A DNA stretch of 64,000 bases from Flavobacteriaceae bacterium UJ101 (GTDB lineage Bacteria; Bacteroidota; Bacteroidia; Flavobacteriales; UJ101), in the NCBI GenBank assembly GCA_001880285.1, contig CP016269.1, positions 1,188,501 through 1,252,500 of the forward strand, written 5' to 3'. The translations under genes were made by a program, and so were the position numbers. This document shows, piece after piece, positions 13,537 to 43,976 of this stretch. The first letter of the stretch is position 1. Each line of letters starts with the position of its first letter. The notes under the pieces were generated by a model. It searched no databases. It was given only the letters and a program-made list of their open reading frames with translations, and was not told where the DNA came from.

Positions 13537-13570
13537 AAAAACATTGTGAAAAAATTCACAATGTTTTTTA
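13536..13570. terminator. Terminator shared by hxlR-type gene and the original tRNA
   Basis: ACATTGTGAA (13541-13550) with TTCACAATGT (13555-13564), 4-base loop, T run after it on + and A/T run on the other side. Before integration the minus-strand tRNA would have read into this hairpin. Confidence 0.85.
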
Positions 13571-17640: not shown

Positions 17641-20600
17641 CTATGACTTTATAATATCTGCCCATAACCCTGTATAAGTAAAATATAAATGCACCTCTAA
17701 AGTTTGGTTTAGAAGTTTTTTAAAATCAAATTTTTTGTTATTTATTCGAGCAATTAAAGACCTTCCATGTGAAGTAGCCTTTAGATTATAAAAACTACCC
17801 TCTTTTATTATAGTTCCATCAAAAACCTGTTTCTCATTGGTTTCATAATCAGTAAAATATAAAGAAGTTTTTAATTTAGCAGAAGGAAATATTCTTCGAA
17901 TATCTTTTTGAAATGAAAAGGCTTCCTTGAGGTTTCTATTATATATTTCAGCAATAAAACTAAAGTATAAGTAATCTATCTTATTCTTTTCTATTATTGA
18001 TTTATTGTTATTAATAATATTATTAAATTCTATCCTATTGTTAGTATAGTGTAATCTACTACCATAATAATACATTAAAAACTCAGAAACCTCATTTACA
18101 AATGAATACATTTTTATTTCATCAATAATACTTTCATCTATTTCTTCCCCCTTTGTATTTAAGTATTCTATTCGCATTAACAATGAATAAGGTCGTGTCT
18201 CTTGGTCTTGATATAAATCATCTATTCTTTGGAGTAATTCACTCTCATTAAGACGTTTTTTATATCGTTTTTGGAGCTTAATTATTTCATCAGCATTCTC
18301 TTCTAAGTTAGCTATAGCCTTATTAATTAATCTATATATTTTAATATCATTTTTAGCTTTTTCAACCTCATCTTCAGAAATTCCTTCATACCAATATAGT
18401 GCTTTAATGTAGTTTCTGTAGCTAAAAATACTATCAGGGGCTAATGACAATTTTATGTCAAAAAGTTCTATTGCTTCTTGATATTCATTAATGTAGTATC
18501 CATCATTATTATTGTACAACAGTTTTGCTAATTCAATTTTAACACATGCTTTTCTGTGTATTAAATATTCGTCTCTTGAAAAGTAACTTCTTTTTAAATC
18601 TTCGTTTAATTCATATTCGTCAAGTAACTTAATTGCTTTAATTAAGTTATCTTTTTTATTTAAAATACGAAATTGTAAATTTTTAGTATAGTGAATAAGG
18701 AATTGCTTTTCTAAGCCTATATGCTTAAATGCTAAATCATACAGTCTATTTATTTTGCTATCATCAAACTTTTTTTCATTTCTTAATTCTTTTATGAGCT
18801 TAACAAATAATTTAACAGAATAAGAATTAGATGATAATGAATTTACTATCTTCTGAAAATCAGAAAATAAAGTATTAGTGTTTTTATAGAAATTATCAAT
18901 AAAACTTTTTGCCAAAATTTTGTGATTGACTTTAAAATACAAATCAGGCATCAAGTATTTATCATTCGTAATATGTTCTTGAATAAAAACCCCTTTTCCA
19001 TCTGTTTGCAATACTTCTGTTTTGAATTTTTGATAATCTGCTGAAATAAGGTTTTTTAAAACTCCAACAGGCATTTTTATACCATATTGGTATAATAAAC
19101 AAGTAAATTTAAAAGCTTTTTTTGTGTCTTCATTATCAAATTGATTATAGGCATTAATAATATACTTTGAGTGATTCCCTTTTTTTATTATTTTTAAGAA
19201 TATTGTTAATGGATTGTTTAATTCTTTATCAATGAGTATATCATTTATGATAGTCTGCTTTTCTTTTTCATCCTTCAATTCAATAACAGACTTTTGAGCT
19301 AACTTAGAAATTAATTCATTTAATTCATCTTCATTAAAAATACAATTAATATCTATCTCATTAATGTCTTTAATTTTGAATTTATTTTTATATGCTTCTA
19401 ATCTATTTTCTCTAATCGATTGTAGAAGAATTATACTTTTGTCTTGATATTGTTCAGCATTTAACTCTCCTCTTAACTCTCTGATTCTTTTAAAATTATT
19501 CTCAAGGTCAACTAAATCACTATAAATAATTACTTTTTGAACTTCTTTTAGGTTTTCTATTAAAGATTTTATTAAACCAATATTTAATTTATCAAAATCA
19601 ATTATCTCAAAAGCAACAATGTCTTTACTTTCTGTAGTTAACTCTTTTATGAGCCTGTATGAAAATGTAGATTTCCCTGTACCATATGAACCTTTTAGAA
19701 ATATTATAGAACAATCTAATTCTTGCTCCTCAAACTTATTTAGTAATACCTGTTTAACTTCTTTTGTTTTTTCTTTCCAGACAACATCTAAATTTTCTTT
19801 GATTATTAAATAATTTGGCTCTTGTCCTAAATAAAACTTTAAAGGGTCAATATTATCTTTAATCGAGTAATTATCATTAATAGGTACTATAAAGTATTCT
19901 AACTGACTACTTAAGTGAAAATTGATTTTAGTATTATTAGGCAACACATATCTGTTTCTTGATTTAGAGTTGTATTTGTCTTTATTCGCATCATACCATT
20001 TTGAATAATCATCAATGAAAGTCTTATAATCTTTTTTGATTGGTGTAATCTTTTTAGAACTCCAATAATCTTGATAAAATTCAGAAGTATCTATGTCTGG
20101 TGAAACTAAATAATGATTTCTACCAACCAACTTTTCTTGGAACATATTTAGAAATAAATCTCCAAATCTATCGCTAAAAGAATATCCTATAAACAAAATA
20201 GTAACATCATCGCTAAACTGATTTAATAACGAGAATATCTGATTATAAAACTTATTATTTTTTTCAAATTCTTTAGTAGAAAAAAGTATTGGATATTCTC
20301 CAATATCAGAAATACACCCATGCAATTTGACTACTTTTGTTTTTGTATTGGAATGTATATTGTGCTTAAATTCTTTAATATTTCTTAAAAATTCAAAAGA
20401 GCTTTCAATTTTATTTTTTGCAACAGATTCTTCAATTAGGGTATCAATATTTGTAGTTATTATAAGTTTCCAAGGAATTGATATGCTTTCAAAATGAAAA
20501 CTCTCAGCTTTTAACTTTCTACCTAACCAATCTGAAATTCTAACATCAAAATCATTTCTGTCATATTTTGATATTGAAAAAACTTTGTTTACAAAATCTA

Positions 20601-20760
20601 CAATATCATTGCCATGATTATCATATGGAATATTTGCTATTTCAGTATAATAATCAATTAATTCCTTACTCAGATATTTATGCTTTGAAGTAACTGATGC
20701 TCCAGCACCTAAAAATAAAATACACTTTCCACTTGCTATTGAGTCAAATAATTTGTTCAT
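17641..20760 (-). CDS. SIR2-domain plus P-loop NTPase protein, candidate antiphage defence (Avs5-like)
   Basis: 1039 residues from MNKLFDSIASGK; an upstream in-frame ATG (20808) would place promoter and hairpin inside the gene. SIR2-like domain at about 1-290: FLGAGAS (17-22), TTNID (102-106), KLHG (145-148), IGYSFSDRF. P-loop NTPase at about 330-620 with GSYGTGKST (357-365). A long helical C-terminal region, probably TPR-like sensor repeats, completes it. SIR2 effectors in Avs5, DSR and related systems deplete NAD+ on phage sensing; the SIR2-NTPase-repeat order fits Avs5/STAND proteins. No partner gene is adjacent. Defence function is inferred from architecture and island location. Confidence 0.8.
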   Translation of the reverse strand: MNKLFDSIASGKCILFLGAGASVTSKHKYLSKELIDYYTEIANIPYDNHGNDIVDFVNKVFSISKYDRNDFDVRISDWLGRKLKAESFHFESISIPWKLIITTNIDTLIEESVAKNKIESSFEFLRNIKEFKHNIHSNTKTKVVKLHGCISDIGEYPILFSTKEFEKNNKFYNQIFSLLNQFSDDVTILFIGYSFSDRFGDLFLNMFQEKLVGRNHYLVSPDIDTSEFYQDYWSSKKITPIKKDYKTFIDDYSKWYDANKDKYNSKSRNRYVLPNNTKINFHLSSQLEYFIVPINDNYSIKDNIDPLKFYLGQEPNYLIIKENLDVVWKEKTKEVKQVLLNKFEEQELDCSIIFLKGSYGTGKSTFSYRLIKELTTESKDIVAFEIIDFDKLNIGLIKSLIENLKEVQKVIIYSDLVDLENNFKRIRELRGELNAEQYQDKSIILLQSIRENRLEAYKNKFKIKDINEIDINCIFNEDELNELISKLAQKSVIELKDEKEKQTIINDILIDKELNNPLTIFLKIIKKGNHSKYIINAYNQFDNEDTKKAFKFTCLLYQYGIKMPVGVLKNLISADYQKFKTEVLQTDGKGVFIQEHITNDKYLMPDLYFKVNHKILAKSFIDNFYKNTNTLFSDFQKIVNSLSSNSYSVKLFVKLIKELRNEKKFDDSKINRLYDLAFKHIGLEKQFLIHYTKNLQFRILNKKDNLIKAIKLLDEYELNEDLKRSYFSRDEYLIHRKACVKIELAKLLYNNNDGYYINEYQEAIELFDIKLSLAPDSIFSYRNYIKALYWYEGISEDEVEKAKNDIKIYRLINKAIANLEENADEIIKLQKRYKKRLNESELLQRIDDLYQDQETRPYSLLMRIEYLNTKGEEIDESIIDEIKMYSFVNEVSEFLMYYYGSRLHYTNNRIEFNNIINNNKSIIEKNKIDYLYFSFIAEIYNRNLKEAFSFQKDIRRIFPSAKLKTSLYFTDYETNEKQVFDGTIIKEGSFYNLKATSHGRSLIARINNKKFDFKKLLNQTLEVHLYFTYTGLWADIIKS

Positions 20761-20765
20761 AGCTA

Positions 20766-20773
20766 CAAAGGTA
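20766..20773 (-). promoter_or_regulatory. -7 element of the SIR2-NTPase gene
   Basis: Minus strand TACCTTTG, five bases before the ATG at 20760. It directly follows the T run of the terminator at 20775-20806, so the gene starts its own, possibly leaderless, transcript. Confidence 0.5.
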
Positions 20774-20774
20774 T

Positions 20775-20806
20775 AAAAAAACCACCTCACAATAAAGCAA
20801 GGTGGC
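20775..20806 (-). terminator. Terminator upstream of SIR2-NTPase gene
   Basis: CCACCT/AGGTGG (20782-20787, 20800-20805) with a 12-base loop; on the minus strand it is followed by seven T. It lies just after the decayed DUF3871 end, mirroring the hairpin that follows the intact DUF3871 gene. Confidence 0.65.
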
Positions 20807-20811
20807 ATCTA

Positions 20812-23147: not shown

Positions 23148-23900
23148 TTAATTAGGAAAAGCATTATATTTTATAGCTAATTTAAACAATAAAACTTGAA
23201 TCTCACTAAATTTATGATCTTGAGCTAGTTCATTTATATTAGAATTATAATCACAAAAAAGAATAAAGTTCTGTATGTCAGAATCTTTTATTTTTAAATC
23301 ATTAATAAAAAAATAAGCCCCAAAATATTCTTGTATTAATTTTCTAATTTTATGATTATCTATATATGTTTTTGCCTTTTTTAATTTTTTTTGAGATGAT
23401 TTATACATATTAAATGATCTTCTATAAAATACAGGAGGACCGTTGTTTTTTGGAGGAGCAATATAAAAAGACACTTGTTCCCCTAAATCTAAATTAGTTG
23501 GTTGAACTTTGTTTAAAATTTGTTGTTGCTTGTAACTTTTTAATTTTGATTGATTTTCTTTTATATCGGCTGCTAAATCTCCAGAAAATTTTAAAGGACT
23601 TATAATAACTTCATCTATAGTATACCTGTTAATATCAATATAAAAGTATTTTTCTTTTATTTCCTTACTTGTAATAATATATTCTTTATTAAAAGCATTT
23701 AGTATAAGTGTATCACTTTCTTTAACCTTTAATTTGAAAATTGTATTGGTAACAGTATTAATAGAGTCATAACTATTCTTATTATACAACATTATAAGTG
23801 TATTTTCTTCACTTAAAATCTCCCCATTTATAATTTCTCTGTTTTGAGAAAAAAGTAGATGAAACAGTATAAACAATATAAAAGAAAAAGAATACTTCAT
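23148..23900 (-). CDS. Exported protein with carboxypeptidase-regulatory-like N-terminal region
   Basis: 250 residues with signal peptide (MKYSFSFILFILFHLLFSQ). Residues 20-95 have the strand pattern of a CarboxypepD_reg-like domain (INGEILSEENTLIMLYN, YFYIDINRYTIDEVII); the Lys/Gln-rich C-terminal part is helical. Proteins of this kind recur in Bacteroidota RiPP export loci. Its start overlaps the HlyD stop by one base, tying it to the export genes. Confidence 0.6.
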   Translation of the reverse strand: MKYSFSFILFILFHLLFSQNREIINGEILSEENTLIMLYNKNSYDSINTVTNTIFKLKVKESDTLILNAFNKEYIITSKEIKEKYFYIDINRYTIDEVIISPLKFSGDLAADIKENQSKLKSYKQQQILNKVQPTNLDLGEQVSFYIAPPKNNGPPVFYRRSFNMYKSSQKKLKKAKTYIDNHKIRKLIQEYFGAYFFINDLKIKDSDIQNFILFCDYNSNINELAQDHKFSEIQVLLFKLAIKYNAFPN

Positions 23901-25195
23901 TAATTGTATTTAAATAAATCCCTAAACTGATAAAAAATACGTTCAATTAATCTTAAATCTTCTGTTATAATATCAGCAGTTCCTTGCATTTCTTGTTGGA
24001 AATATAGATCCTTATTATAGGTTGTATGTAATTTATTAGGTAATGTTACCTCTATGTAATAGTTCCCTTGTTTATCAGGTGTCAAAGACATGGTTTTAAC
24101 ATAACCTTCTACCATTCCAAACTCTTGATAAGGGTAATTATCTAATTTAATCAAAACTTTCTGATTGGGTTTTATTTTTCCTGTTTTATTTGCTTTTGTA
24201 GTTATCTTTCCTACAATTTCAGAATCTAAAGGTAAAATAGAAATCACATTATCTCCAACTTTTACAAATTGATTTTCTCCCCAAAACTGCTGAAAACTAG
24301 CTTTTCCACTAATGGAAGCTTTTATTAAATAAATATGTTCCCACTGTTTTAAAGAACGTTTTAATTGCTCATAAGATAAAATAACTTCTTTTAAAAAACG
24401 GGTATTATCTTGCGTATTATGAATTGTTGAACTTTGAATTCCCTTTTGAGCTGTTACCTTTGATGAATGAAGCTGTGAAAGTTGTATTTTTGTATTCTCA
24501 TAATTTCGTTTTGCCTGTAAATAATCCAATTCTTTTGATTCAAGATCTACTTGAGATATTACACCTTCTTCATATAGAGATTTTGTTCGATTATAATCTT
24601 TTTTTCTTACTTCTAATTCTTTTCTTTCCAATTCTTGCTGAGATTTTAAAACTCTGGATTGTGTATTTAGTTCTAATAAAGTCTGTTCACTGGCTAATGA
24701 CTCTATTGAATAAGGTTTTAATTTTTTATGCAATGTATAATCGGAATAGGCTTTTTCAAATAAAGCATAATCTTGTTCCAGTTCTCCTAAATTGAGATGT
24801 TGTATTTTTTCTATTGGAAATTTAAAATTAGTATAATTTTGATTAAAAGAATCTATAACCTCTCTTAAGTTTAAAATATCATTGAAATTAGCTGTATTCT
24901 CGATAACCGCTAATATTTCATTTCTATTTACTTTTTGTTGATCTTCAACTAAGAATTTCACAATTCTCCCCCCTGTTTGGGCTTCAATTTTCTCTATAGG
25001 CGTATTGGTTGTAATTTTAATAGTTGTTGAAATAAAATCAGGATATTTAACCATCCAACTTACCATTAATATAAGTATTATAGATAAGAATATAATCGTT
25101 ATTCCCCATCTAACAATCCATCTAGGAGGGTTACTCAATACTTCCTGAACTTCTTCAGATCTTAAATCAATATGTTCTAATTCATTAGGATTCAT
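23900..25195 (-). CDS. HlyD-family membrane fusion protein (peptide exporter adaptor)
   Basis: 431 residues. One N-terminal membrane helix (about 31-49), a lipoyl/barrel-sandwich half (IEKIEAQTGGRIVKFLVEDQQ), a long coiled-coil hairpin (about 110-270), the second half-lipoyl segment and a beta-barrel (TTKANKTGKIKPNQKVLIKLDNYPYQEFG). It should join the C39 ABC exporter to an outer-membrane channel, none of which is in the cluster. Its start overlaps the exporter gene by 11 bases. Confidence 0.9.
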   Translation of the reverse strand: MNPNELEHIDLRSEEVQEVLSNPPRWIVRWGITIIFLSIILILMVSWMVKYPDFISTTIKITTNTPIEKIEAQTGGRIVKFLVEDQQKVNRNEILAVIENTANFNDILNLREVIDSFNQNYTNFKFPIEKIQHLNLGELEQDYALFEKAYSDYTLHKKLKPYSIESLASEQTLLELNTQSRVLKSQQELERKELEVRKKDYNRTKSLYEEGVISQVDLESKELDYLQAKRNYENTKIQLSQLHSSKVTAQKGIQSSTIHNTQDNTRFLKEVILSYEQLKRSLKQWEHIYLIKASISGKASFQQFWGENQFVKVGDNVISILPLDSEIVGKITTKANKTGKIKPNQKVLIKLDNYPYQEFGMVEGYVKTMSLTPDKQGNYYIEVTLPNKLHTTYNKDLYFQQEMQGTADIITEDLRLIERIFYQFRDLFKYN

Positions 25196-27386
25196 TTAAC
25201 TTCTCTAGTTCTAATTGATTTTTAACTAAATGGTAATAATCTCCTTTCTTTGCAATAAGACTACTATGCGTTCCTTGTTCTACAATTTTTCCACTATTCA
25301 TTACAATGATCTGATCTGCATTTTTTACGGTACTAAGGCGATGAGCTATTATAACAGCTGTTTTACCTTTAAAAAACTGATTGAGATTTTCCATTATAAT
25401 TCTTTCATTGTGAGCATCTAAAGCACTTGTTGCTTCATCAAAAAAAATGAAATCTGGATTTTTATATACAGCTCGTGCAATTAATAAACGTTGTTTTTGG
25501 CCACCACTTATCCCAATTCCTTCACTCCCAATTTTTGAATTGTAACTTAAAGGTAAACTTTCTATAAAATCTTTGATATTAGCTACAGTTACAGCTCGCA
25601 ACAACTTTTCTTTATCAATATAATTTTCTCCTACTACAATATTATGGGCAATGGTATCATTAAAAATATAACCTTCCTGCATAACAGCTCCACAGTGTGA
25701 ACGCCATGTTCTTTGTGAAATGGTATTAAAGTTTTGACTCCCTAGCTTAATAAAACCTTCATTAGGTTCATAAAAACGCATTAAAAGTTTCATAAGGGTT
25801 GTTTTTCCACTTCCTGAAGCTCCTACTATAGCTGTTGTTTTTTTATGAGGAATAATTAGATCAATCTGATTAAGTACATATTCTTTTACTCCTATATAAC
25901 GAAAACTCAAATTATCAATTTGAATATCTTTGTTAGGTTCTATTTCATATAATTTAGGTTGTTCTAAATCTTCCTCATCTTCTTTATCATGAATTTCATT
26001 TAATCGTTCTAAGCTAATCTTAGCATCTTGCATATCCTGTATAAAATCAACCAATTGAGAAATTGGATTATTTAACTGTCCTATAATGTATTGTATTGAT
26101 AACATCATACCTAATGAAATTTCTCCTTTTAAAACCAAAGAAGCAGAAGTAAATGTAATGAGAATATTTTTTAATTCATTAATAAACTGAGAGCCAATAG
26201 ATTGCAATTGCTCTAAGGTTAAACCTTCCATAGACACCTTAAATAAACGAACTTGTATAAACTCCCATCCCCATCGTTTTTGTCTTTCAGCATTATGTAG
26301 TTTTATTTCTTGCATTCCACTAATGAGTTCAATGGTTTTACTTTGTTCTTCACTCATTTGGGTGAAACGTTTGTAATCCAATTCTTTTCTGCGTTTTAAA
26401 AAGAAAAAAATCCAACCAATAAATAAAATACTTCCTATAATAAAAATTAAAAAAATAGTAAGATTATAATAAATAAGAATAAAACTAAAAACAATAATAT
26501 TAAAAAATGAAAAAAGAGTATTAAGAGACGATCCAGTTAAAAAAGTTTCTATTCTTTTGTGATCTTCAATACGTTGCATAATATCGCCTGTCATTCGAGT
26601 ATCAAAATAGGCTATGGGAAGATTCATGAGTTTTATAAAAAAATCTGAAACTAATGAAATATTGATTCGTGTGCTTAAATGTAATAAAATCCAACTTCGA
26701 ATAGCTTGAATACTGATTTGCCCTACAAACAACATAATTTGAGCAATTAATATTAAATAGATAAAATCTAAATCTTGATTTTGAATCCCAATATCTACAA
26801 TACTTTGAGTAAGAAAAGGAAATAGTAATTGTAAAAGACTTCCTGCTACTAACCCTATAATTAACTGAAAAACAAGTAATTTGTATTTGAATAGATAAGT
26901 GTAAATGAATTTAAATCCAGCATTGGATTTTGTCTCCCATTTATTATCGTAGAATCTATGAGTTGGTTCTAAAAATAAAGCAATTCCTTCTTCGGTTGTT
27001 TCGTTTGCATTTTTACCAATCCAATTTTCTATAAATTCATCTTCTTCATACGTTATTAAACCATAAGCAGGATCTGAAATATAAACTGTATTTTTTGTGA
27101 TCTTATAAATTACTACAAAATGGTATTTATTCCAATGTAAAATACAAGGTAAAGGAGCCTCTTCTTCTAACGTTTCATAATCTAATTTAGCACCTATAGT
27201 TTTGAATCCAATATTTTCAGCAGCTTCTGATAAACCTAATAAAGAACTTCCCTCTCTTGTAGTTTCACTCAAATGACGTATTTGTTCCAAATTAATAGAT
27301 TTACCATAATATTTACTTATAATTCGTAAACAAGTAGGTCCACAATCTTTTTGCCCTGGCTGCTTATAATTTGGGAATGATTTCAA
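25185..27386 (-). CDS. Peptidase-containing ABC transporter (C39, bacteriocin-type)
   Basis: 733 residues. C39 peptidase (about 1-140) with catalytic Cys15 in QKDCGPTC, His in HFVVIYK and Asp in ISDPAYG, so it should be active and cleave after double-glycine leaders. Five or six membrane helices follow (about 160-450). The nucleotide-binding domain has Walker A GASGSGKTT, signature ISGGQKQRL and Walker B IIFFDEATSALD. It would cut and export both GG peptides of the cluster (31686-31832, 35042-35188). Downstream of the SpaB_C gene by 16 bases. Confidence 0.95.
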   Translation of the reverse strand: MKSFPNYKQPGQKDCGPTCLRIISKYYGKSINLEQIRHLSETTREGSSLLGLSEAAENIGFKTIGAKLDYETLEEEAPLPCILHWNKYHFVVIYKITKNTVYISDPAYGLITYEEDEFIENWIGKNANETTEEGIALFLEPTHRFYDNKWETKSNAGFKFIYTYLFKYKLLVFQLIIGLVAGSLLQLLFPFLTQSIVDIGIQNQDLDFIYLILIAQIMLFVGQISIQAIRSWILLHLSTRINISLVSDFFIKLMNLPIAYFDTRMTGDIMQRIEDHKRIETFLTGSSLNTLFSFFNIIVFSFILIYYNLTIFLIFIIGSILFIGWIFFFLKRRKELDYKRFTQMSEEQSKTIELISGMQEIKLHNAERQKRWGWEFIQVRLFKVSMEGLTLEQLQSIGSQFINELKNILITFTSASLVLKGEISLGMMLSIQYIIGQLNNPISQLVDFIQDMQDAKISLERLNEIHDKEDEEDLEQPKLYEIEPNKDIQIDNLSFRYIGVKEYVLNQIDLIIPHKKTTAIVGASGSGKTTLMKLLMRFYEPNEGFIKLGSQNFNTISQRTWRSHCGAVMQEGYIFNDTIAHNIVVGENYIDKEKLLRAVTVANIKDFIESLPLSYNSKIGSEGIGISGGQKQRLLIARAVYKNPDFIFFDEATSALDAHNERIIMENLNQFFKGKTAVIIAHRLSTVKNADQIIVMNSGKIVEQGTHSSLIAKKGDYYHLVKNQLELEKLNES

Positions 27387-27402: not shown

Positions 27403-28248
27403 TTATTTTAAATATTTCTGTATTCCATATTCACTCTTATAATACTGAAATAGTAGATCGTAGCATACCCATTCATTAATTCGTTGCTTGGAATGAAAAG
27501 ACCTATTGCATAACATATGTAAATAGCTATACAACAAACTATTAATTATCTCCTGATCTTTTGTCTTTTGAGAAATATCTTTAGCTATTTTAGAATATAG
27601 TTCGTGAAAATAGGATTCATCTTCCGTTTCTTCTTTAAGGGTACTCTTTATCATATTAGCTGAATCTCTATATTTTTTATTAAGTTGTTTTCTTGTAAAC
27701 TTATTAATTTTAAACTCATCTCCAAAATCCATTTTCATAGTTTCTAATAAATCTTTTTTACTTTTTAAATCTAATTTGAAACTATTTAATATTGTATCAA
27801 TCATTTTTATTACTAAAAGCCATCTATTTTCACTATTAAAATCTATAGATTGTAAATTTGTGAGGACTTGCTTACTGTTTATATAAAAAAACTCTTCAGA
27901 AAACTCTATTAATTCGTTATGATATCGTTCAATTTCTCTATTATACGTGTCTAAAACAACTTTATAAGCCATTTTTTTTGAGACTAACGTATCTAATTTT
28001 TTATATAAAATAGAAATAATGAACCCTATATTATTTACATCATTGATCAAAAAACGTATTCTAATATGAGGATCAGGATCATTATAACGAATAAAAAACC
28101 ATTTTATAATATTTTTTTTTATTATTTCTTCCTCAAGAATATCAGGTAAATAATTAATTATAAAATGATCTATAGTCTGAGTACCCATATATATTTTATA
28201 ATAGATCCATTCACTACCAATAATAAAATGACGTTTTATGTTTTGCAT
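27403..28248 (-). CDS. Stand-alone SpaB_C/thiopeptide-type domain protein (LanB elimination half)
   Basis: 281 residues. The hallmark W-F-x-R-Y-x-D-P-x-P-H-x-R-x-R appears as WFFIRYNDPDPHIRIRF at about 50-66. In full-length LanB this C-terminal domain eliminates glutamate from glutamylated Ser/Thr to give dehydroamino acids. Here it is a separate protein, as in split-LanB systems such as pinensin. It overlaps the dehydratase gene by 13 bases, implying stoichiometric synthesis. Confidence 0.92.
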   Translation of the reverse strand: MQNIKRHFIIGSEWIYYKIYMGTQTIDHFIINYLPDILEEEIIKKNIIKWFFIRYNDPDPHIRIRFLINDVNNIGFIISILYKKLDTLVSKKMAYKVVLDTYNREIERYHNELIEFSEEFFYINSKQVLTNLQSIDFNSENRWLLVIKMIDTILNSFKLDLKSKKDLLETMKMDFGDEFKINKFTRKQLNKKYRDSANMIKSTLKEETEDESYFHELYSKIAKDISQKTKDQEIINSLLYSYLHMLCNRSFHSKQRINEWVCYDLLFQYYKSEYGIQKYLK

Positions 28249-30404
28249 ACTGAAAAAATAAATTCGTTAGAGTAAACACAATCTTCTTTTTTAACAATAG
28301 AATTATATTTAGTAAATAAATTTTCTTTTAAAATAACCTCTTCTTTATTTTTTATAACTTCTAAAAAAAGATTACAATTAAATTGATCCTTTAAATTGAT
28401 AGGTAGTTCATTATCAAATTCAACTACTAAAATATGGTCATCAATATTCATTTCATTTGTAATTTTAAAAACATCATTAGGTGTTTTTAACATTTTTAAT
28501 TGTTTTTCGTCTAACAACCATTTTTTTGGAGAAAGAATTATATTTTGATATTGAACTCTAGGAACATATTTAAAATCTTTCAATAATGAATTTATATTCA
28601 TACCTAAATAATCAACTTTATCTTGAGTTTGTAAATCACATAAAAAATTATAGATAGGTAATGCATTAAAACTATAGTTATGAGCATTTGATAATCTTGG
28701 TTCAACTATTTTATTATGCTTTCTTGATCTTAGAATTATCTTATTATTTTTTATAGACAGATATAAATCATTAATATTAATTTGATTCTCTATTGGTAAA
28801 TTACTTTTTGCTAAATAAGGTATTTCATAGTTTCTTACATTTTTCCTATAAAGGATATTCCCTGTTCTACTTTCTGGAAGATGAATAATTTCTGCTAGAA
28901 TTCGATTGGATTGATTTTGATTTTCAAGCTCTAAAATATTATTTATAAGGTTTTCAATATTTTTGCTAACATGACCAAATCTTCCTAATAAATACGTACC
29001 AGAAGATCCTCCAACAGAACTCATACTAATCAAGTTTTCTCCTTTTTTTTCTCCCTCTAATAAAGAACATAAAATAGAAAATGTATCAGGTAAATCATTC
29101 CATTTGTCTTCAAAATTACTTAGGTCAGATTCCGAAATAATAATTTTTTCTTCATTATTTTTTAAAGCTTCAACATATTTTTCTTTTAAAAATTGAGGAA
29201 TAGTATTTTGATCACTTTGACCTTCTTCTGTATTCAAATTTAAAATTAGATCATCTATTAGAGGATTTACATCGTATCCCCCTTTTAAATTTTGATCATA
29301 CCCTATGCCTAACTCTACATCTAATGCTAGAGGTAAAGCAATTTCCTCATCTTCATATCTTTTATAAAATTCTTCTTTGAATTTTTCTAATCTAGTGTTT
29401 GGAACTTTACTAGTAAGTTTAGTTAAAATATAAACTCCTTTTTTAAGATCTTTTAAAATACTTTTATTAATCGTATTAGTATTATAAAACACTTCTAAAT
29501 CTGTTTGTAATATGTATTTTTTATTTATAGAAGTATTATTCTTTTTTAAGAGTTTTTCTAATACATTGTAATCTTTATAAGCATAAAAAGATGACATTGA
29601 ATTATTAGTTATGAGATCACGTATATCATGCAAGTTAGGAATATTCGTTTTATCACATAATATATTTAAATAGTCATTTCCAGAAACAGGTGAGGATAGA
29701 TCACTTATCAATATTTGATTTTCAATGAGTTCTAATATAAAGTTTTTCAAATCAGTTTTATTTATAGAAGTATCATTCATATATAATTGAAGTTCATCTA
29801 CTATTTCTTTTATCGTTTTTCCATATTTAGTTTTTTCTAATATAAATTTAATATAGTCTGAATAGTCAATAGATATGGTAAAATGTTGTCTAATATTGTC
29901 AATATACTTATATTCTACATATCGATAATGATCTCCTACTCGATAAATACTCGTATTTGGATAATATTTTAATTGCTTATAGACATTTTCTTGCTTTTCT
30001 AATTCAAAAGAAAGAGAGCATAGATAGTTCATATCCAATCTATTAATTCTTCTAAATTTATCAAAAGAGCCTATTTCTACTTCCGTCGTTTTTTCTGATA
30101 TATCACCTATTGCAATTCCTGAAAATAAACCAAAAGGAGTACATCTAGATGACATCCGTAATATATATTTCAGAATACTTCTTTTTAATTTCTCTACTTT
30201 ATCTATCGAAGTTATTTCTTGATTTAAATACTTTATAATTTGATCATAAAGTTCTGGAGAAGCTAAATATACTGCTTCTAAAAATAGATCGTTTTTACAA
30301 AAACTTTTTATTTCTTCATCAGTAAATTCTTTATATATCCACTGTAAATCAAATAGAGGAGTCCTTGCTACGTATTGATTAAGAATTTTATATTCTCTAC
30401 TCAT
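28236..30404 (-). CDS. Lantibiotic dehydratase, glutamylation domain (LanB N-terminal half)
   Basis: 722 residues, matching the N-terminal glutamylation domain of class I LanB (full LanB is about 1000). Hallmarks: RMSSRCTPFGLFSG at about 83-96, FGHVSKN, and ILRSRKHNKIVEPRLSNAHN, all characteristic of LanB. It uses glutamyl-tRNA to esterify precursor Ser/Thr. The elimination domain is encoded separately just downstream. The transcript starts upstream at or before the precursor gene at 31686-31832 and passes through the LanC-like gene. Confidence 0.94.
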   Translation of the reverse strand: MSREYKILNQYVARTPLFDLQWIYKEFTDEEIKSFCKNDLFLEAVYLASPELYDQIIKYLNQEITSIDKVEKLKRSILKYILRMSSRCTPFGLFSGIAIGDISEKTTEVEIGSFDKFRRINRLDMNYLCSLSFELEKQENVYKQLKYYPNTSIYRVGDHYRYVEYKYIDNIRQHFTISIDYSDYIKFILEKTKYGKTIKEIVDELQLYMNDTSINKTDLKNFILELIENQILISDLSSPVSGNDYLNILCDKTNIPNLHDIRDLITNNSMSSFYAYKDYNVLEKLLKKNNTSINKKYILQTDLEVFYNTNTINKSILKDLKKGVYILTKLTSKVPNTRLEKFKEEFYKRYEDEEIALPLALDVELGIGYDQNLKGGYDVNPLIDDLILNLNTEEGQSDQNTIPQFLKEKYVEALKNNEEKIIISESDLSNFEDKWNDLPDTFSILCSLLEGEKKGENLISMSSVGGSSGTYLLGRFGHVSKNIENLINNILELENQNQSNRILAEIIHLPESRTGNILYRKNVRNYEIPYLAKSNLPIENQININDLYLSIKNNKIILRSRKHNKIVEPRLSNAHNYSFNALPIYNFLCDLQTQDKVDYLGMNINSLLKDFKYVPRVQYQNIILSPKKWLLDEKQLKMLKTPNDVFKITNEMNIDDHILVVEFDNELPINLKDQFNCNLFLEVIKNKEEVILKENLFTKYNSIVKKEDCVYSNEFIFSVCKT

Positions 30405-30427
30405 TTAATAGAAATTTCATTAAAAAT

Positions 30428-31627
30428 TTATTGATAAAAACCTAAAGCTTCTGCCCATAAATAATCATCAAAATCAGAAGAGGATAATATTAAACCAATA
30501 CCTAAAATACCATCAAATAAACTATATTTATCATAAGGATAATTTTTTGTTTCATTTTGCCATATTGATTCAGGCATAAGAATAGTTTCATTAGTATTTA
30601 AAACAGTTTGAGTATTTATCAATAATTGGTTCTCCCAATATTGAATTTTTTCTTTCACAATTTCTAATTTCAAGTAATTGTTTACTTTTTTTAAAAGGAA
30701 GACTATAGCACCAATTCCATGTGAAAATCCAATATCATAAAATGATTCTTTCTCAAAATAAATAATACCTGATTCTTTAATATCTATTTGGCAAAAGTCA
30801 AGAACCATTTCTTTAGCTATGAGAAACAGGTTATCTCTCCCATTCCCAATAACATTATTCGCATATAATAAAGAATATGCTACTCTTAAATAACCAAAAG
30901 AGTTTGATAAATTATTAATATTCTGTTTAGGTTTAAAAGTTTTATGTTTTTTTATACTCACCTCTTTGAACATGATTTTATAATCTATAGCAACTTTTAA
31001 AAGTTCATCGAGTATTGAGTCTATATATTTATTTTGAAAATTTATCTCTTTTAATTTTATAAAATAATTTAAAATATCCAAATGATAATTAATGTCAATT
31101 GATTTTTTCATTAAATAATCATCCCATGTAATATAATTTTCATAATAAGTACGTTTGTAATAAAGTATGTTTATAATTTCATTAATTATACTATCTTTTT
31201 GATCTTTATATTTTTTTGATAAAAAAAATATTTGAGATTTACCAATACATCCATGAATGAAATTATATTTTCTATTAGTTAAATCATAATGAATAGACTC
31301 TATTAAATACTTCTCTATATCATCAGTTAATGACTGATCATTAATAATATTACTTTTATAGAAATAATTAATTGCCCAAAATATTCCCTCAAATCCATGT
31401 ATAAAACTATAAGCTAATTCTTGTTTTTCAAATTCCTTTATAAATTCTTGTAAAAGATTTATAGCTTTATTCTTATTTACTTCTTCATTAGTGACTCTAT
31501 ATAGATGTGTAAAAAAAATTATTGTACCTAAATCTTCATCAATAAATGGATAATACATCTTTTTTGATTTTTCAAAAAGTCTTGTAGAAATCTCATTTAT
31601 AATCCTTTGTCTATCTATGTTTAACAT
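30428..31627 (-). CDS. LanC-like protein lacking the zinc-ligand cysteines
   Basis: 399 residues with the repeating (alpha/alpha) GxxxHG-type motifs of LanC: SFIHGFEGI (74-82), NFIHGCIGK (122-130), SNSFGYLRVAYSLL (241-254), GFSHGIGAI (300-308), LFDGILGIG (370-378). In NisC-type cyclases the fourth and fifth positions are WCYG and CHG, supplying two Cys and one His to zinc. Here, by motif order, they read NSFG and SHG: both Cys are Ser and only His303 remains. The whole protein has two cysteines (127, 279). Either it is a non-cyclising partner or it uses another mechanism. Motif assignment is by eye. Confidence 0.82.
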   Translation of the reverse strand: MLNIDRQRIINEISTRLFEKSKKMYYPFIDEDLGTIIFFTHLYRVTNEEVNKNKAINLLQEFIKEFEKQELAYSFIHGFEGIFWAINYFYKSNIINDQSLTDDIEKYLIESIHYDLTNRKYNFIHGCIGKSQIFFLSKKYKDQKDSIINEIINILYYKRTYYENYITWDDYLMKKSIDINYHLDILNYFIKLKEINFQNKYIDSILDELLKVAIDYKIMFKEVSIKKHKTFKPKQNINNLSNSFGYLRVAYSLLYANNVIGNGRDNLFLIAKEMVLDFCQIDIKESGIIYFEKESFYDIGFSHGIGAIVFLLKKVNNYLKLEIVKEKIQYWENQLLINTQTVLNTNETILMPESIWQNETKNYPYDKYSLFDGILGIGLILSSSDFDDYLWAEALGFYQ

Positions 31628-31685: not shown

Positions 31686-31832
31686 TTATTTTTGATAAGT
31701 TGTAACAGAGCCACCTATAGCAATAAAACATTTCTTCTTAGTACTAAGAATACATAATCCTCCATGTACTTTTTGCATTTCTTGATTATTAAGTCTTGAA
31801 ACTGTTTTTTTGTTTAATTGTAATTTATCCAT
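31686..31832 (-). CDS. Lanthipeptide-like precursor peptide with GG leader
   Basis: 48 residues, too short for the usual cutoff. The leader starts MDKLQLNKKTVSRLNNQ and ends EMQKVHGG (residues 19-25), close to the Bacteroidota class I lanthipeptide leader pattern (LNKKT...LN..EM..V.GG). The 23-residue core begins LCILSTKKKC and ends GGSVTTYQK: two Cys (core 2 and 10), two Ser and three Thr. Only Cys10 has Ser/Thr on its N-terminal side within the core (Ser5, Thr6), so an ordinary ring could join those. Cys2 could ring only with downstream residues or stay free. It lies directly upstream of lanC/lanB-type genes. Confidence 0.85.
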   Translation of the reverse strand: MDKLQLNKKTVSRLNNQEMQKVHGGLCILSTKKKCFIAIGGSVTTYQK

Positions 31833-31939: not shown

Positions 31940-33142
31940 TTATAATAATATTTTTTTGATTAATCTATATGTGTTTCTGATTCCATTTCTTGAAACAATA
32001 ATATCCTCTTCAGTTACATCTTTTATATTATCGTTCATTATAAAATCACACCAATTTTCGGATGACATATTCTCGTAATTAACGTCATTAATCATAATTA
32101 TTTTATCTCCAATTTGAAGTCCTTTTTTGCTTGCATCAGAGCCATCGTAAATAGCGCTTATGTACAAGTTGTTATTTTTAAAATTAAGTGTATACCCAAA
32201 AGATTTTAAACTTTTAGTTTTATCTAAATTTAGAGACTTATCAATTAACATCTCTTTATCAAACCAATTTAGAATTATATGTGTATTTTTAAAAAAATCA
32301 AATCCTATTACATTCCCTGATAAGTCATTAAAAGTAACAGTCTGATTTTTTAGATTCATGTCTCCAATTGAAAATTCATCTACTCGAGCAAAATTTATCG
32401 TTTCATGAATCTCTTGTCCATAAATACCTACGTTATGTATTCCTTTTGCTTGAATTGACTTAATATCAGTTAACTTTTCATAAACTCTATTTGATATATT
32501 CACTCCTCCATTATACCCCAAATCAATTATAGTATTTAACACTTTATTTCCATTAATTTTACTTATAATAGATGGCGTTTTATCATACCCAACAAAAAAT
32601 TTAGTCCGATATACATCTTTTAAACTTTCTTTACCAAAAGTCATTTTATCTTTTATAGTAATGATATTTTCTGGAAAATTAAAGTCCCAAATTGTACTTT
32701 TCATTAAATTAGCTCCTATTATTCCTTCAATATTGAGACATTTAAAATGATCTTCTTCTAAATCATAAACAGAAGCTCCTATATTTTGAAAATTAACCCC
32801 TGCTATATTAATATTATCAATCAAAGTAAAATTCAACGCAGTGGTATCCGAATTAAAATCTGACACATTTTGTTTCCCTTCAAATTTTAACCCTAATTTA
32901 TTAAATAAATGATGACTAATTACTGTAGGAGCACCTGTATCTAGTAAAAAATTATATTTATTACCTTTTAACTCCGCTTCAATTATAATTAAACCATTTT
33001 TAATTTTATAAGGAATATCTACAGAATAACTTTTTTCAACAACATTTCCACTATTTAATGTTGAAATTATCTTAGAGTTTACACAACTATTTATTAATAA
33101 ACAAAAAGTTAAAATAGTAAGAATAGATCTATTTATCTTCAT
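31940..33142 (-). CDS. Retropepsin-like aspartyl protease lipoprotein with PDZ domain
   Basis: About 400 residues from MKINRSIL. Lipobox LINSC at about residue 20. Retroviral-type aspartyl protease half with LLDTGAPTVIS (DTG 68-70) and a second half with IIDLGYNGG, where Thr is replaced by Leu. A C-terminal PDZ domain follows (AIYDGSDASKKGLQIGDKIIMIND). It is envelope-anchored. It sits immediately upstream of the precursor operon on the same strand, within the cluster, so a role in peptide maturation or immunity is plausible but unproven. Confidence 0.85.
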   Translation of the reverse strand: MKINRSILTILTFCLLINSCVNSKIISTLNSGNVVEKSYSVDIPYKIKNGLIIIEAELKGNKYNFLLDTGAPTVISHHLFNKLGLKFEGKQNVSDFNSDTTALNFTLIDNINIAGVNFQNIGASVYDLEEDHFKCLNIEGIIGANLMKSTIWDFNFPENIITIKDKMTFGKESLKDVYRTKFFVGYDKTPSIISKINGNKVLNTIIDLGYNGGVNISNRVYEKLTDIKSIQAKGIHNVGIYGQEIHETINFARVDEFSIGDMNLKNQTVTFNDLSGNVIGFDFFKNTHIILNWFDKEMLIDKSLNLDKTKSLKSFGYTLNFKNNNLYISAIYDGSDASKKGLQIGDKIIMINDVNYENMSSENWCDFIMNDNIKDVTEEDIIVSRNGIRNTYRLIKKILL

Positions 33143-33335
33143 AGAAATTAAATATAAATTTTGAAACAATATTAAACGTTATAAGAGTAAAATAAAACAA
33201 TAATTGACAATGATTTATAAATCTACTTTTAACAATTTATAAATTCACCCTACAAAATAACTTTTTAAACCACTGATAAAAAGGAAATTACGTTATTTTA
33301 TCTATTTTTATTTTTTTTACTAAATTCTTTAACAC

Positions 33336-33356: not shown

Positions 33357-35042
33357 TTGTACAAAAAAATTAATCTAATAGTTACTTTTTTTATTTCTAT
33401 TACTTTTATATTTTTTATAAAAGCTGAAATAAATGATTCTTTAATTACAAAAAATTATAAAGAATTAGAAGAAAAAATCCATGATTATGCTAAAACAAAA
33501 AAGGATAGAAAACAATATGCATACACTTATTTAAAAAAGGCTAAAATTAATAGAGATACATTAAATTTATTAAATGCTTATTACAATATTTGTTTTGTTA
33601 TAGACTATAACAAAGGTTTACAATACACAGATAGCATGCTATTAATTTCAAAAACAGGTTATTATATGAATTATCCTGAAAAGGCCTATGAAATGAAAGG
33701 AAACCTTTATTATAATCTTAATAATAATGTTGAAGCTCTCGAAAATTATTTGATAGCAGAAAAAATAGCTAAGAAAAAAAACAATAAAGAATTACTATTT
33801 TTTTTAAAACAATCTTTAGGTAATCTTTATAATAATTTTAATAGAAATAAAAAAGCTAAAAAATATTTAATTGAAACTACAAATTATCATGAAAATTTAT
33901 ATCTAAAAAATTCTTCTTCTAAAAATAGATTTTCATATTTAGCAAATTTATATTCACTAGCAAATAATTATAGAAAATCTAATAATTATGATTCAGCACA
34001 ATTTCTCCTAGATAAAGGATTAAAAATTAATAAAAATGATTCAACACTTATAAATTTGTTTTTACTAGAAAAAAATGTTATTAAATATAACTTAGAGAAC
34101 TATACTGAATCAATTGCTGGAATAAAAAGAAATTTATCCTACTTAAAGAAAAGAAAAGACACACCATTATCTGATGTCATGTCGTGTTACTTATATTTAG
34201 GTAAAAATTATGAAAAACTTAATAGAAATGATAGTACTTTATTTTTTTATAATAAAGTTGATTCATTACTAAAAATTTCAACTATTCTTTATCATGATTA
34301 TCTAAGACCATATCAATTTTTAATTAAATATTATAGAAATAAAAATGTAGAAAAGGAACTTTATTACACAAAAAGACTACTATTTTTAGATAGTGTATAT
34401 AAAAACAACACTCTTTTTCTTACAGAAAAAGTTCTTGAAGAATATGAATTACCTAATAGATTACAAAATAAAGAAAAACAAATTTCTTCATTAAAGTATT
34501 CTAAAAACAAAGCTTATTTTTGGTTATGTTTACTTTTAATTGCAATAACTCTAGTTATATACTATTTTCATCAAAGATCAAAAAATATCAAACTACGATA
34601 TGAAAAAATAATAAAAAGACTAGAAGAGAATAAACAAATAATTATTAAAAAAAATAATACTACAAATTCATCTATTGATATTGAACAAAATACTGTAGAA
34701 AAAATTATCTCTCATTTAAATAATTTCGAAAAAAACAAATTATACCTCAATAAATATACACTAAATAAGTTAGCCTCTGAATTTAATACAAATAGTACCT
34801 ATCTTTCAAAAGTTATAAACCACAAAAAAGGTATTAGTTTTTCAAATTATATCAATTCATTAAGGATTGAATATATTTTAAAAAGATTAAGAGAAGATAA
34901 AATTTTTAGAAATTATACTATTAAAGCAATAGCAGAAGAAACAGGTTTTAGTAGTGCTCAATCTTTTTCACGAACATTTAAAAAAGAAACAGGTATATAT
35001 CCTTCTTATTTTATAGAAAAAATTAATCAAAATAAATTATAA
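33357..35042 (+). CDS. Membrane-anchored TPR-AraC transcriptional regulator
   Basis: 561 residues, TTG start (no in-frame ATG near). An N-terminal hydrophobic signal (about 5-23) leads to TPR-like repeats (about 90-370), then a membrane helix (NKAYFWLCLLLIAITLVIYYF, about 382-403), a coiled linker and a C-terminal AraC double HTH (about 455-561: LASEFNTNSTYLSKVINH, GFSSAQSFSRTFKKETG). This places the sensor outside and the DNA-binding domain inside the cytoplasm. The adjoining peptide gene overlaps its stop by one base (TAATG). It probably senses a periplasmic or extracellular signal and controls the cluster; the exported peptide is a candidate ligand, which is inference. Confidence 0.88.
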   Translation: MYKKINLIVTFFISITFIFFIKAEINDSLITKNYKELEEKIHDYAKTKKDRKQYAYTYLKKAKINRDTLNLLNAYYNICFVIDYNKGLQYTDSMLLISKTGYYMNYPEKAYEMKGNLYYNLNNNVEALENYLIAEKIAKKKNNKELLFFLKQSLGNLYNNFNRNKKAKKYLIETTNYHENLYLKNSSSKNRFSYLANLYSLANNYRKSNNYDSAQFLLDKGLKINKNDSTLINLFLLEKNVIKYNLENYTESIAGIKRNLSYLKKRKDTPLSDVMSCYLYLGKNYEKLNRNDSTLFFYNKVDSLLKISTILYHDYLRPYQFLIKYYRNKNVEKELYYTKRLLFLDSVYKNNTLFLTEKVLEEYELPNRLQNKEKQISSLKYSKNKAYFWLCLLLIAITLVIYYFHQRSKNIKLRYEKIIKRLEENKQIIIKKNNTTNSSIDIEQNTVEKIISHLNNFEKNKLYLNKYTLNKLASEFNTNSTYLSKVINHKKGISFSNYINSLRIEYILKRLREDKIFRNYTIKAIAEETGFSSAQSFSRTFKKETGIYPSYFIEKINQNKL

Positions 35043-35188
35043 TGAAAACAAAAAAGTTAGAAGAAAAAAACTTTCCAAAAAGTTTAGAATTAAGAAAAAT
35101 CACTATTTCTAAAATGAATTTAGTAAAAGGTGGAGGACCAGGTGGAGGTAATACATCATTTACTTTAGGTCGAACAAGACAAAAATAA
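35042..35188 (+). CDS. Cysteine-free GG-leader peptide
   Basis: 48 residues. Leader MKTKKLEEKNFPKSLELRK, then ITISKMNLVKGG, ending with a double glycine at about 29-31. The core, from the second glycine on, is GPGGGNTSFTLGRTRQK. It has no Cys, so lanthionine rings cannot form on it; Thr/Ser (NTSFT, RT) could only be dehydrated or left unmodified. Start overlaps the regulator stop (TAATG), implying coupled translation. The core resembles neither the first precursor nor its ring pattern. It may be an inducer peptide for the regulator, or a substrate of the prolyl oligopeptidase encoded next. Confidence 0.75.
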   Translation: MKTKKLEEKNFPKSLELRKITISKMNLVKGGGPGGGNTSFTLGRTRQK

Positions 35189-35255
35189 TTTTGTAATTTT
35201 AAATCCTTAAGACTTTTTATTTTAGTCTTAAGGTTATCTATAATGCTGTTTAACG

Positions 35256-37385
35256 ATGAAATATAACAATATTTATACAATTCTATTATCTCTAATTTTA
35301 ATTTCTTTAAAAAGTCAAACTTTATCTTATGATTCTATATCATCTCCTAATAATGATCCTTATTCATTTCTAGAAGATATTGATAATGAAAAAGTAATGG
35401 AATATCTTAAAAAACAAGATCAATTAACAGATTCCATTTTAAAAACAATACAGAGTACAAATAGTATTTATGATGAGTTTATTGGAAAAAGAAAAAATAA
35501 AACAGAAATTTCAAAACTTGAAATAGTCAATAACACCTTATTTTATTTAAAGAAAGATGGGGATTTACATGCGTATCCCAAATTATATAAAAGAAGTATT
35601 TTCAAAGGAAAAGAAAAATTATTATACGATCCTTCTACTATTTCTACTAATAGTAGTGATTTATATATCAATTATATCAACCCTAGCCCTGATGGGACTA
35701 AAATTATTATAGGTTTAAGTGAAGGAGGTAAAGAGTTCTCAAATCTAATTATATTGAATACAAATAATTTATATCAATATCCTACTACATTAGATAAAAC
35801 ATTTCCTAATTCATTTTTCACTTCATGGCTATATGATAATTCTCAATTTATTTATGCTAAATTTCCTAATAGTAACAATACAGGGGTAGATCGATATGAA
35901 AATTTTGAATCTCGAATCATTAAATTGGATCATGAAAAAATCAAATCAAATGAAGTTATTTTTTCAGAAAAACATAATCCTAATATTAATATAAAAAAAT
36001 CTGATTTCCCATTGACATATACAATTAATTCAAGTACAAATTATCTATTTTCAGGAATATTTGATGGAAGCAATTCGGTAGATCATTATTATAAAACCAT
36101 TCATGATAAGAAATGGTCTAAATTATACGATGCTAACGAATCCATAATTTCATTCAGTATTAATAAAAATCAACTGATTTATTTAACAAATAAAAACACA
36201 CCTAATTATTCCATTAGGCAAACTTCTTTATCAAAACCTGATTATACTAACTATCAAACATTAATAGCTGAAGATTCTATCAGTGTATTAGAAGATTTTG
36301 TTTTAACCAAAAATGGAATTTATTTTTCAAAAGTTAAAAACGGTGTAGAAGCTAAACTATATCATTATCAAAAAGGGAAGATTAACGAAGTTAAATTACC
36401 AAAAAAAGCGGGTAGCATAAAACTAAATTCAAATTATGATCAATGTTGGATAAAAATTGAAGGGTGGACTTTTGAAGAAGAATATTATATGATAAACCCT
36501 AAAAATGATAAACTAAAACCCATTATATTTTCTGATGATAATCACATTCAAATTGAAAATGCAATAATCAAAGAAATAGAAATCCCTTCCCATGATGGGA
36601 CTTTAGTCCCTTTAAGCATAATCTATAAGAAAGGGCTAAAATTAAATGGGAAAAATAAGGTATTACTTAATGCTTATGGAGCATATGGCTATAATTATGA
36701 TGCTCTGTATGAAAATTACCTTGATTATTGGTTGTCAGAAGGAGGTGTTTATGCAATAGCTCATGTAAGAGGAGGAGGAGAAAAAGGGAAAAAATGGCAT
36801 GAAGGAGGTTTTAAAAAAACAAAGCCTAATTCTTGGAAGGATCTAATTGCTTGTACAGAATATTTAATTAACCAAGGTTATACATCTCCTTCTTATTTAG
36901 CAATAAGAGGTACTAGTGCAGGAGGAATTGTCATAGGAAGAGCTATTACAGAACGTCCTGATTTGTTTAAAGTAGCAGTAGTTAATGTTGGAGCATTAAA
37001 TATTATAGAAATGGAAAAAATGGCTACTGGAGCAGCTAATACACCTGAGTTTGGTTCTGTTAAAAACCCTGAAGAATTAAAATATTTATATGAAATGGAT
37101 GCTTATCATCATATTCAAAAAGATGTAAAATATCCTTCTGTTTATTTAACTGCTGGGATGAATGATCCTAGAATTCCTGTTTTTCAACCTGCTAAATTTG
37201 CAGCTAAAATGCAAGAATATTCTACTTCAGGGAATCCTATTTTATTAGATATAAACTTTAATAGTGGCCATGGTTATGATGTTTCAGATGAAATTTTTTA
37301 TGATGAATTGAAGAAAACAATGAATTTTATTTTATCTCAAATGGGACATCCTTATTATAAAAACACATCTAATTCAAATAAATAA
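35256..37385 (+). CDS. Exported prolyl oligopeptidase (S9 family)
   Basis: 709 residues with signal peptide (MKYNNIYTILLSLILISLKSQ). Beta-propeller (about 70-420) then an alpha/beta hydrolase domain. Catalytic triad: Ser in GTSAGGIVIG (about 554), Asp in MNDPRIP (about 638), His in SGHGYD (about 672). These serine peptidases cut peptides under about 30 residues after Pro. Family relatives trim leaders in some class III lanthipeptide pathways (FlaP-type). Its place, 67 bases after the GG peptide gene, suggests it processes or degrades the cluster peptides in the periplasm. Confidence 0.92.
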   Translation: MKYNNIYTILLSLILISLKSQTLSYDSISSPNNDPYSFLEDIDNEKVMEYLKKQDQLTDSILKTIQSTNSIYDEFIGKRKNKTEISKLEIVNNTLFYLKKDGDLHAYPKLYKRSIFKGKEKLLYDPSTISTNSSDLYINYINPSPDGTKIIIGLSEGGKEFSNLIILNTNNLYQYPTTLDKTFPNSFFTSWLYDNSQFIYAKFPNSNNTGVDRYENFESRIIKLDHEKIKSNEVIFSEKHNPNINIKKSDFPLTYTINSSTNYLFSGIFDGSNSVDHYYKTIHDKKWSKLYDANESIISFSINKNQLIYLTNKNTPNYSIRQTSLSKPDYTNYQTLIAEDSISVLEDFVLTKNGIYFSKVKNGVEAKLYHYQKGKINEVKLPKKAGSIKLNSNYDQCWIKIEGWTFEEEYYMINPKNDKLKPIIFSDDNHIQIENAIIKEIEIPSHDGTLVPLSIIYKKGLKLNGKNKVLLNAYGAYGYNYDALYENYLDYWLSEGGVYAIAHVRGGGEKGKKWHEGGFKKTKPNSWKDLIACTEYLINQGYTSPSYLAIRGTSAGGIVIGRAITERPDLFKVAVVNVGALNIIEMEKMATGAANTPEFGSVKNPEELKYLYEMDAYHHIQKDVKYPSVYLTAGMNDPRIPVFQPAKFAAKMQEYSTSGNPILLDINFNSGHGYDVSDEIFYDELKKTMNFILSQMGHPYYKNTSNSNK

Positions 37386-43888: not shown

Positions 43889-43923
43889 AAAAAACACTTA
43901 CAAATTTATTGTAAGTGCTTGAT
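43889..43923 (-). terminator. Terminator downstream of the tRNA
   Basis: CACTTACAA and TTGTAAGTG stem with a T run on the minus strand. It is supplied by the island, replacing the tRNA's original terminator at 13541-13564. Confidence 0.8.
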
Positions 43924-43976
43924 TTTAAAAGTGGTCCCACATGGGCTCGAACCATGGACCCCCTGATTATGAGTCA
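43923..43976. repeat. attR: 54-bp direct repeat inside the intact tRNA
   Basis: Identical to 13566-13619. The intact tRNA's 3' half is the island-borne copy, so integration restores a functional tRNA. Confidence 0.95.

Follow-up and report, generated by a model that had tools for sequence, protein, structure and literature searches.

Class I lanthipeptide cyclases of the LanC family, such as NisC, rely on zinc held by two cysteines and a histidine (C284, C330 and H331) to activate the substrate thiol. LanC-type proteins without this site are already known from two settings. The first is class III, where ThurKC provides a precedent for a zinc-free cyclase of the LanC fold: its cyclization is reported to be metal-independent, it carries S726, F770 and D771, of which F770 sits at the C330 position and D771 at the H331 position, and the F770A and D771A variants lose labionin (PMC10604976). 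The second comprises LanC-like proteins of Bacteroidales that lack the motif and occur without a LanB dehydratase; the authors do not consider them to be lanthipeptide enzymes (PMC10352776). Searches of the open-access full-text literature found no description of a zinc-less LanC in a class I LanB cluster, which is not proof of novelty. Such a cluster is described here from Flavobacteriaceae bacterium UJ101. It lies in a stretch of 64,000 nucleotides (contig CP016269.1, positions 1,188,501 to 1,252,500), hereafter called the window, to which all coordinates refer unless a locus is named. Its LanC-like protein has lost both zinc cysteines and, judged by sequence comparison, is part of a conserved, selected clade and not one odd protein.

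Cluster anatomy and loss of the zinc ligands

The genes at the center of the analysis are the following.

30428 to 31627, minus strand: LanC homologue without zinc cysteines (399 aa; N122, S243, F244, S302, H303; private H77 and C127)
28236 to 30404, minus strand: LanB-N, the glutamylation half of the split dehydratase (722 aa; R83, R87 and T89 align with R83, R87 and T89 of NisB)
27403 to 28248, minus strand: LanB-C, the elimination half (281 aa; R63, R65, R108 and H244 align with R784, R786, R826 and H961 of NisB)
31686 to 31832, minus strand: precursor A1, with leader MDKLQLNKKTVSRLNNQEMQKVHGG and core LCILSTKKKCFIAIGGSVTTYQK; the leader passes the cut-off of NF038153 (class I lanthipeptide)

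The Pfam profiles LANC_like, Lant_dehydr_N and Lant_dehydr_C are matched at 6.6e-17, 1.1e-126 and 4.1e-60, respectively, each of which passes its cut-off. With 61.6 bits against a curated cut-off of 23.2, the LanC-like protein belongs to the LanC superfamily (PF05147), and the 3.07-Mb genome has no other LANC_like match. The locus has the makeup of a class I lanthipeptide cluster: the glutamylation residues (R83, R87) and elimination residues (R63, R65, R108, H244) of LanB are present in the alignment to NisB, and A1 combines a class I leader (36.3 bits for NF038153 against a cut-off of 22) with Ser/Thr and Cys in its core. Because the catalytic residues of LanB align with those of NisB, dehydration by the LanB pair is likely. 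A preliminary description of positions 28236-31627 had reported a dehydratase divided into proteins of 722 and 281 aa, and this is borne out by the open reading frames (ORFs) and by the Lant_dehydr_N and Lant_dehydr_C matches; LanB-C overlaps LanB-N by 13 bp and lies mostly outside that interval. The split itself is ordinary. In the same taxonomic order, the better LanB-N matches are mostly open frames of approximately 720-760 aa followed by a separate LanB-C, and the split was rejected as a novelty since it is common in Bacteroidota.

Residue equivalence in the LanC-like protein was taken from a profile alignment to NisC (2g02), in which one constant numbering offset (6) applies to D141, H212, C284 and C330, and from subfamily alignments. 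Both place S243, S302 and H303 at the positions of the zinc ligands C284, C330 and H331, in agreement with the initial reading of the sequence, and the residue set of a zinc-dependent class I LanC is no longer complete, H303 being retained. The catalytic D141 is replaced by N122 and Y285 by F244, while H212 is lost, its column falling in a 3-residue deletion. In the zinc-less Aquimarina copies introduced below, this column holds Asn, the C284 position Leu and the Y285 position His. Low model confidence in the loop 227-242, before S243, makes the exact placement of S243 less secure than that of S302. The protein has exactly two cysteines, 127 and 279, as had been counted before. All three ligands are kept in 117 of the 126 other LanC ORFs compared, so their loss is not a matter of chance. 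With both zinc cysteines gone in these alignments, zinc activation of the substrate thiol in the manner of NisC cannot work in this protein, a conclusion that the preliminary description had also reached. The protein is not a class III LanKC either, as it stands alone with 399 aa and LANC_like as its only match, and is not a fused lyase-kinase-cyclase.

The fold itself is retained. The AlphaFold model is an alpha,alpha-toroid of the LanC type, with a mean predicted local distance difference test score (pLDDT) of 89.6 and a predicted template modeling score (pTM) of 0.91. Its best matches in the PDB are NisC and MadC (TM 0.65-0.71), and LanCL2 is also among the top matches. A phmmer search of the protein against the PDB returned chance matches only, and the profile was used in its place.

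Conservation, selection and the two-cysteine precursor

A scan of GTDB contigs with the LanB profile led to Aquimarina longa (L126), and a search of 66 Aquimarina genomes led to further LanCs. The identity of the A. longa cluster to that of the window is 44% for LanB-N, 50% for LanB-C, 39% for the altered LanC, 74% for the exporter and 39% for the aspartic protease. Two more zinc-less LanCs (G416, G407) occur among the 66 genomes, together with three zinc-keeping cousins (G400, G461, G438). The altered LanC of the three Aquimarina genomes is approximately 40% identical to that of the window, and it stands in the same operon setting in A. longa and G416; the G407 contig starts just upstream of LanC, with LanC, exporter and HlyD visible. 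In a LanC tree built with the zinc-ligand columns removed, the four zinc-less proteins form one clade (99 in the Shimodaira-Hasegawa-like approximate likelihood ratio test, SH-aLRT) within an 11-member subfamily (100) whose other seven members keep zinc. The LanB tree agrees, with 93 for the zinc-less group and 100 for the subfamily, and groups the window LanB-N with LanC-associated LanBs. Both are quick trees with SH-aLRT as the sole support measure. Parsimony on the unrooted tree suggests a single loss of the zinc site on the stem of the four proteins. No clade members beyond the window and A. longa were found in samples of 396 genomes from the order, 397 from Flavobacteriaceae and 345 from the class, a single-protein scan of genome contigs with the window LanC as query gave no match, and there was no LanC match among plasmids. 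Psychroserpens-type loci (L083:152-1330, L084:157-1329, L085:87-1259) carry, near a canonical LanC, a second copy with none of the three zinc ligands; these copies branch separately from the four-member clade.

An altered cyclase gene may also be a decaying one, left in a cluster that is dying or was stranded by horizontal transfer, and both the AT-rich island on which the cluster lies and its patchy occurrence among relatives could be taken in this sense. This explanation is highly improbable and was rejected on selection and conservation, which contradict it for the zinc-less clade. The ORFs are intact in all four species (396-399 aa), the neighbors are conserved, precursors form arrays (six A1-type genes in G416), and the ratio of nonsynonymous to synonymous differences per site (pN/pS) is approximately 0.17-0.21 among the Aquimarina zinc-less LanC copies. 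For LanC of A. longa and G416, pN is 0.125 and pS 0.735 (pN/pS 0.17), compared with 0.18 for LanB of the same pair and 0.15 for one zinc-keeping LanC pair; with synonymous sites near saturation, these values serve as an indication, yet the pattern is not what a non-functional gene would show. The window LanC is too distant from the other zinc-less LanCs (38-42% pairwise identity) for its ratios of 0.56-0.62 to be interpreted.

Conservation is strongest around the mouth of the toroid. Between the window and A. longa proteins, identity is 61% over the seven inner-helix tips there and 33% in the rest of the protein (Fisher p 4e-5), a descriptive test because the segments were picked from alignment and model. 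All four zinc-less LanCs, and none of the 123 others, have H77, C127 and S302, while N122 is present in 1 of those 123. H125, H182 and H303 are invariant in the clade as well. These residues could form a relocated metal site, in which His77, His125, Cys127, His182 and/or His303 would hold a thiol-activating metal, zinc or another. All of them are at inner-helix tips in alignment and model, and H77 and C127 are private to the clade. However, H77 lies in repeat 2 and H303 in repeat 6, and with these repeats well apart the two may not reach one metal, and H125 is common in zinc-keeping LanCs (104/123), which leaves this alternative unlikely. Cys127 and Cys279 had been named earlier as residues whose placement at the zinc site would speak against its loss. 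Cys279 was rejected as a ligand, being Ser, Ser and Ala in the zinc-less relatives, while the invariant Cys127 at its inner-helix tip could take part in a relocated site.

The A1 core LCILSTKKKCFIAIGGSVTTYQK resembles LCIKSTKRACTWTLTINLKAAK of A. longa and LCIKSTKKECTWSLEITIDLQA of G416, with C2, S5, T6 and C10 constant among them. Two of the three Aquimarina genomes also have the motif LCIxSTKxxC (shared with L126, L183 and L188), and an A1-type precursor is conserved in three of the four zinc-less clusters, adjoining LanC wherever upstream DNA is present. G416 has six near-identical A1-type genes in a row (L183:9957-11474, minus strand), and in A. longa at least two further genes of this type lie around a run of Ns that marks an assembly gap. 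Zinc-keeping cousins have SC...CC cores with three or more cysteines, and thus, by sequence, zinc loss goes with a simpler two-cysteine core. Since no Ser/Thr precedes C2 in the core, the usual ring would be possible for C10 only (with S5 or T6), and C2 would enter a reverse ring or a disulfide or stay free. The DhxDhxXxxXxxCys motif for self-directed cyclization (PMC9934072) was considered and rejected as a mismatch, as the S-T-K-x-x-C of the A1 core is one residue longer before Cys. Among the products initially proposed was a dehydrated, non-cyclized peptide; plain non-cyclization is less likely because the neighboring precursor keeps two cysteines and the S-T pair. A switch of the LanC-like protein to other, non-thioether chemistry on A1 or on A2, a Cys-free candidate peptide of the same island, is a further alternative, and with the catalytic residues lost, class I logic can indeed no longer be deduced from the sequence. 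It is nevertheless improbable, given the conserved Cys and S-T of A1 next to LanC in every zinc-less cluster with upstream DNA. The earlier interpretation is therefore supported in part: it recognized the ligand loss but missed the conserved clade, the two-cysteine precursor and the ordinariness of the split LanB.

Proposed ring closure without the canonical zinc

The altered LanC is probably useful, since both it and the two-cysteine peptide are retained across distant marine bacteria. On sequence and analogy, the explanation placed first, though held with less than even confidence, is that it is a selected, rewired class I cyclase partner that would aid zinc-independent ring closure, akin to class III LanKC. 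Slightly more tentative still is the fuller form of this proposal. It envisages that class I LanCs of this free-standing lineage arose independently of class III LanKC, that their zinc site may have been replaced by a rewired pocket (His77, Asn122, Cys127, Ser302, His303) and that thioether rings may form by a zinc-independent or relocated-metal mechanism.

Dehydration, cyclization and every other chemical role in the following scheme are what we infer. LanB-N would glutamylate, and LanB-C would then eliminate, Ser5/Thr6 of the A1 core, as the domains and the aligned catalytic residues indicate. The LanC toroid, retaining its central pocket, would bind the dehydrated core and promote the addition of Cys10 (perhaps Cys2) to the dehydro residues with no canonical zinc. 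The likeliest base or positioning group would be the retained His303 with the newly fixed His77/Cys127, by analogy with Asp771, which occupies the His303 position in ThurKC. Finally, the exporter and its HlyD adaptor would cleave at the double glycine (GG) and export the product.

Several points weigh against zinc-independent closure. D141 and H212 are lost as well, and mutating the H212-type acid harms NisC, SpaC and LctM (PMC9934072). Residue 243, the old zinc position, varies inside the clade, being Ser in the window and Leu in Aquimarina. The clade has 28 private columns, and shared ancestry alone also yields private residues, so position counts more than number.

A less probable, second explanation is that LanC is a pseudo-cyclase scaffold, which would merely hold the leader or core and support the split LanB, while rings form spontaneously or a Cys2-Cys10 disulfide arises after export. 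Every canonical catalytic residue but H331 is changed, and the precursor core of the clade has lost cysteines relative to its zinc-keeping sisters. Mutations in the ThurKC cyclase domain cut dehydration too, and LanC-fold domains can thus support a dehydratase (PMC10604976); many split-LanB loci of the same order do without any LanC, so LanB needs no cyclase. In contrast, a scaffold does not account well for the pocket-facing helix tips being the best conserved part, with His and Cys newly fixed there. Nor was a thiol-oxidoreductase gene seen in the listed zinc-less clusters, though similar genes of 515-545 aa lie near LanC in two zinc-keeping sisters (L186:11099-12736 and L080:10122-11669). 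The L186 copy alone matches VKOR, with a weak thioredoxin match, a hint of disulfide chemistry; the L080 copy is similar by eye only. LanC-aided zinc-independent closure is consequently ranked first, the non-catalytic scaffold second and the relocated metal site third.

Genomic setting and comparison with known systems

The minus-strand operon runs from the aspartic protease through A1, the LanC-like gene, LanB-N, LanB-C and the C39/ATP-binding cassette (ABC) exporter to HlyD, after which comes a weak BamP-like gene. The remaining features are listed below.

31940 to 33169, minus strand: retropepsin-like aspartic protease with a PDZ domain and a lipoprotein-like N-terminus, also kept in the A. 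longa and G416 clusters
25185 to 27386, minus strand: PCAT, a C39 peptidase/ABC transporter expected to perform GG cleavage and export (74-75% identity to PCAT of the zinc-less Aquimarina clusters)
23900 to 25195, minus strand: HlyD-type adaptor of the exporter (domain match)
33357 to 35042, plus strand: TPR-AraC regulator, divergent from the operon (domain match)
35042 to 35188, plus strand: A2, candidate second precursor without Cys (leader ending ...MNLVKGG, core GPGGGNTSFTLGRTRQK; no NCBIfam match)
35256 to 37385, plus strand: prolyl oligopeptidase (S9), partner of A2-type modules (domain match)
13566 to 13619, no strand: left 54-bp direct repeat of the tRNA-Met island, att-like (repeat search)
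43923 to 43976, no strand: right 54-bp direct repeat, inside the tRNA-Met gene (repeat search)

The cluster lies on a 30.4-kb island (13566-43976) whose ends are an exact 54-bp direct repeat covering the 3' part of tRNA-Met. Island genes include a tyrosine integrase (39994-41202), DUF3987, AAA_24, RadC and DUF3871, and GC is mostly 22-30% within the island against 30-33% outside. A 1055-aa protein (17641-20808, minus strand) with a SIR2_2 domain and a weak nSTAND NTPase match has a defense-like domain makeup; a defense-gene scan of four island proteins, this one included, gave no PADLOC match. Loci without LanC recur in the order (L053-L079, L148, L159), with a split LanB and TPR-AraC and often a prolyl oligopeptidase and a small Cys-poor GG precursor; they are candidates for dehydrated, non-lanthionine peptides. 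Positions 33357-37385 of the window form such a module, with the Cys-free candidate A2 but no second LanB pair, and next to its zinc-less cluster A. longa has a further, separate LanB pair without LanC.

Zinc-free thioether ring closure by the LanC fold awaits an explanation, and the enzymes that have raised the problem to date are large, fused class III proteins. A stand-alone zinc-less LanC of small size would allow a tractable test, since it has zinc-keeping subfamily cousins and short two-cysteine substrates, and similar operons exist both with the metal site and lacking it. Should the protein prove to be only a scaffold, it would exemplify a cyclase retained for a non-catalytic role. For genome-mining tools, the caution follows that a LANC_like match does not imply zinc chemistry.

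Among known systems, the cyclase domain of class III ThurKC shares with the window protein a LanC toroid without zinc ligands, the replacement of D141 and H212 and, as Ser726, a Ser at the C284 position (PMC10604976). In contrast to ThurKC, with Phe770 and Asp771, the window protein has Ser at the C330 position and keeps His at the H331 position, and it stands free beside a tRNA-Glu-type split LanB, whereas lyase and kinase domains are part of the fused LanKC. Bacteroidales LanC-like proteins are likewise annotated as LanC-like and lack the C...CH triad, but they occur without LanB and near carbohydrate-active enzymes (PMC10352776); the window protein is not of that class, as LanB-N and LanB-C adjoin it. 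Bacteroidetes split-LanB clusters such as that of pinensin also have separate glutamylation and elimination proteins and an LxLxKx5L / GG leader with a C39 protease (PMC7268733). Class I NisC and MadC (2g02, 8byk) resemble the window LanC in fold (TM 0.65-0.71), length (399 aa in the window) and operon partners, yet it is changed at two of three zinc ligands and at the Asp141, His212 and Tyr285 positions. Its closest zinc-keeping relatives (L080, L081, L082, L099 and L185-L187, from Flavobacterium, Croceivirga and Aquimarina) are 28-32% identical and have similar clusters with NF038153-like GG leaders. Unlike the window protein, all of them keep the C284, C330 and H331 equivalents, and their SC...CC precursors have at least three cysteines.

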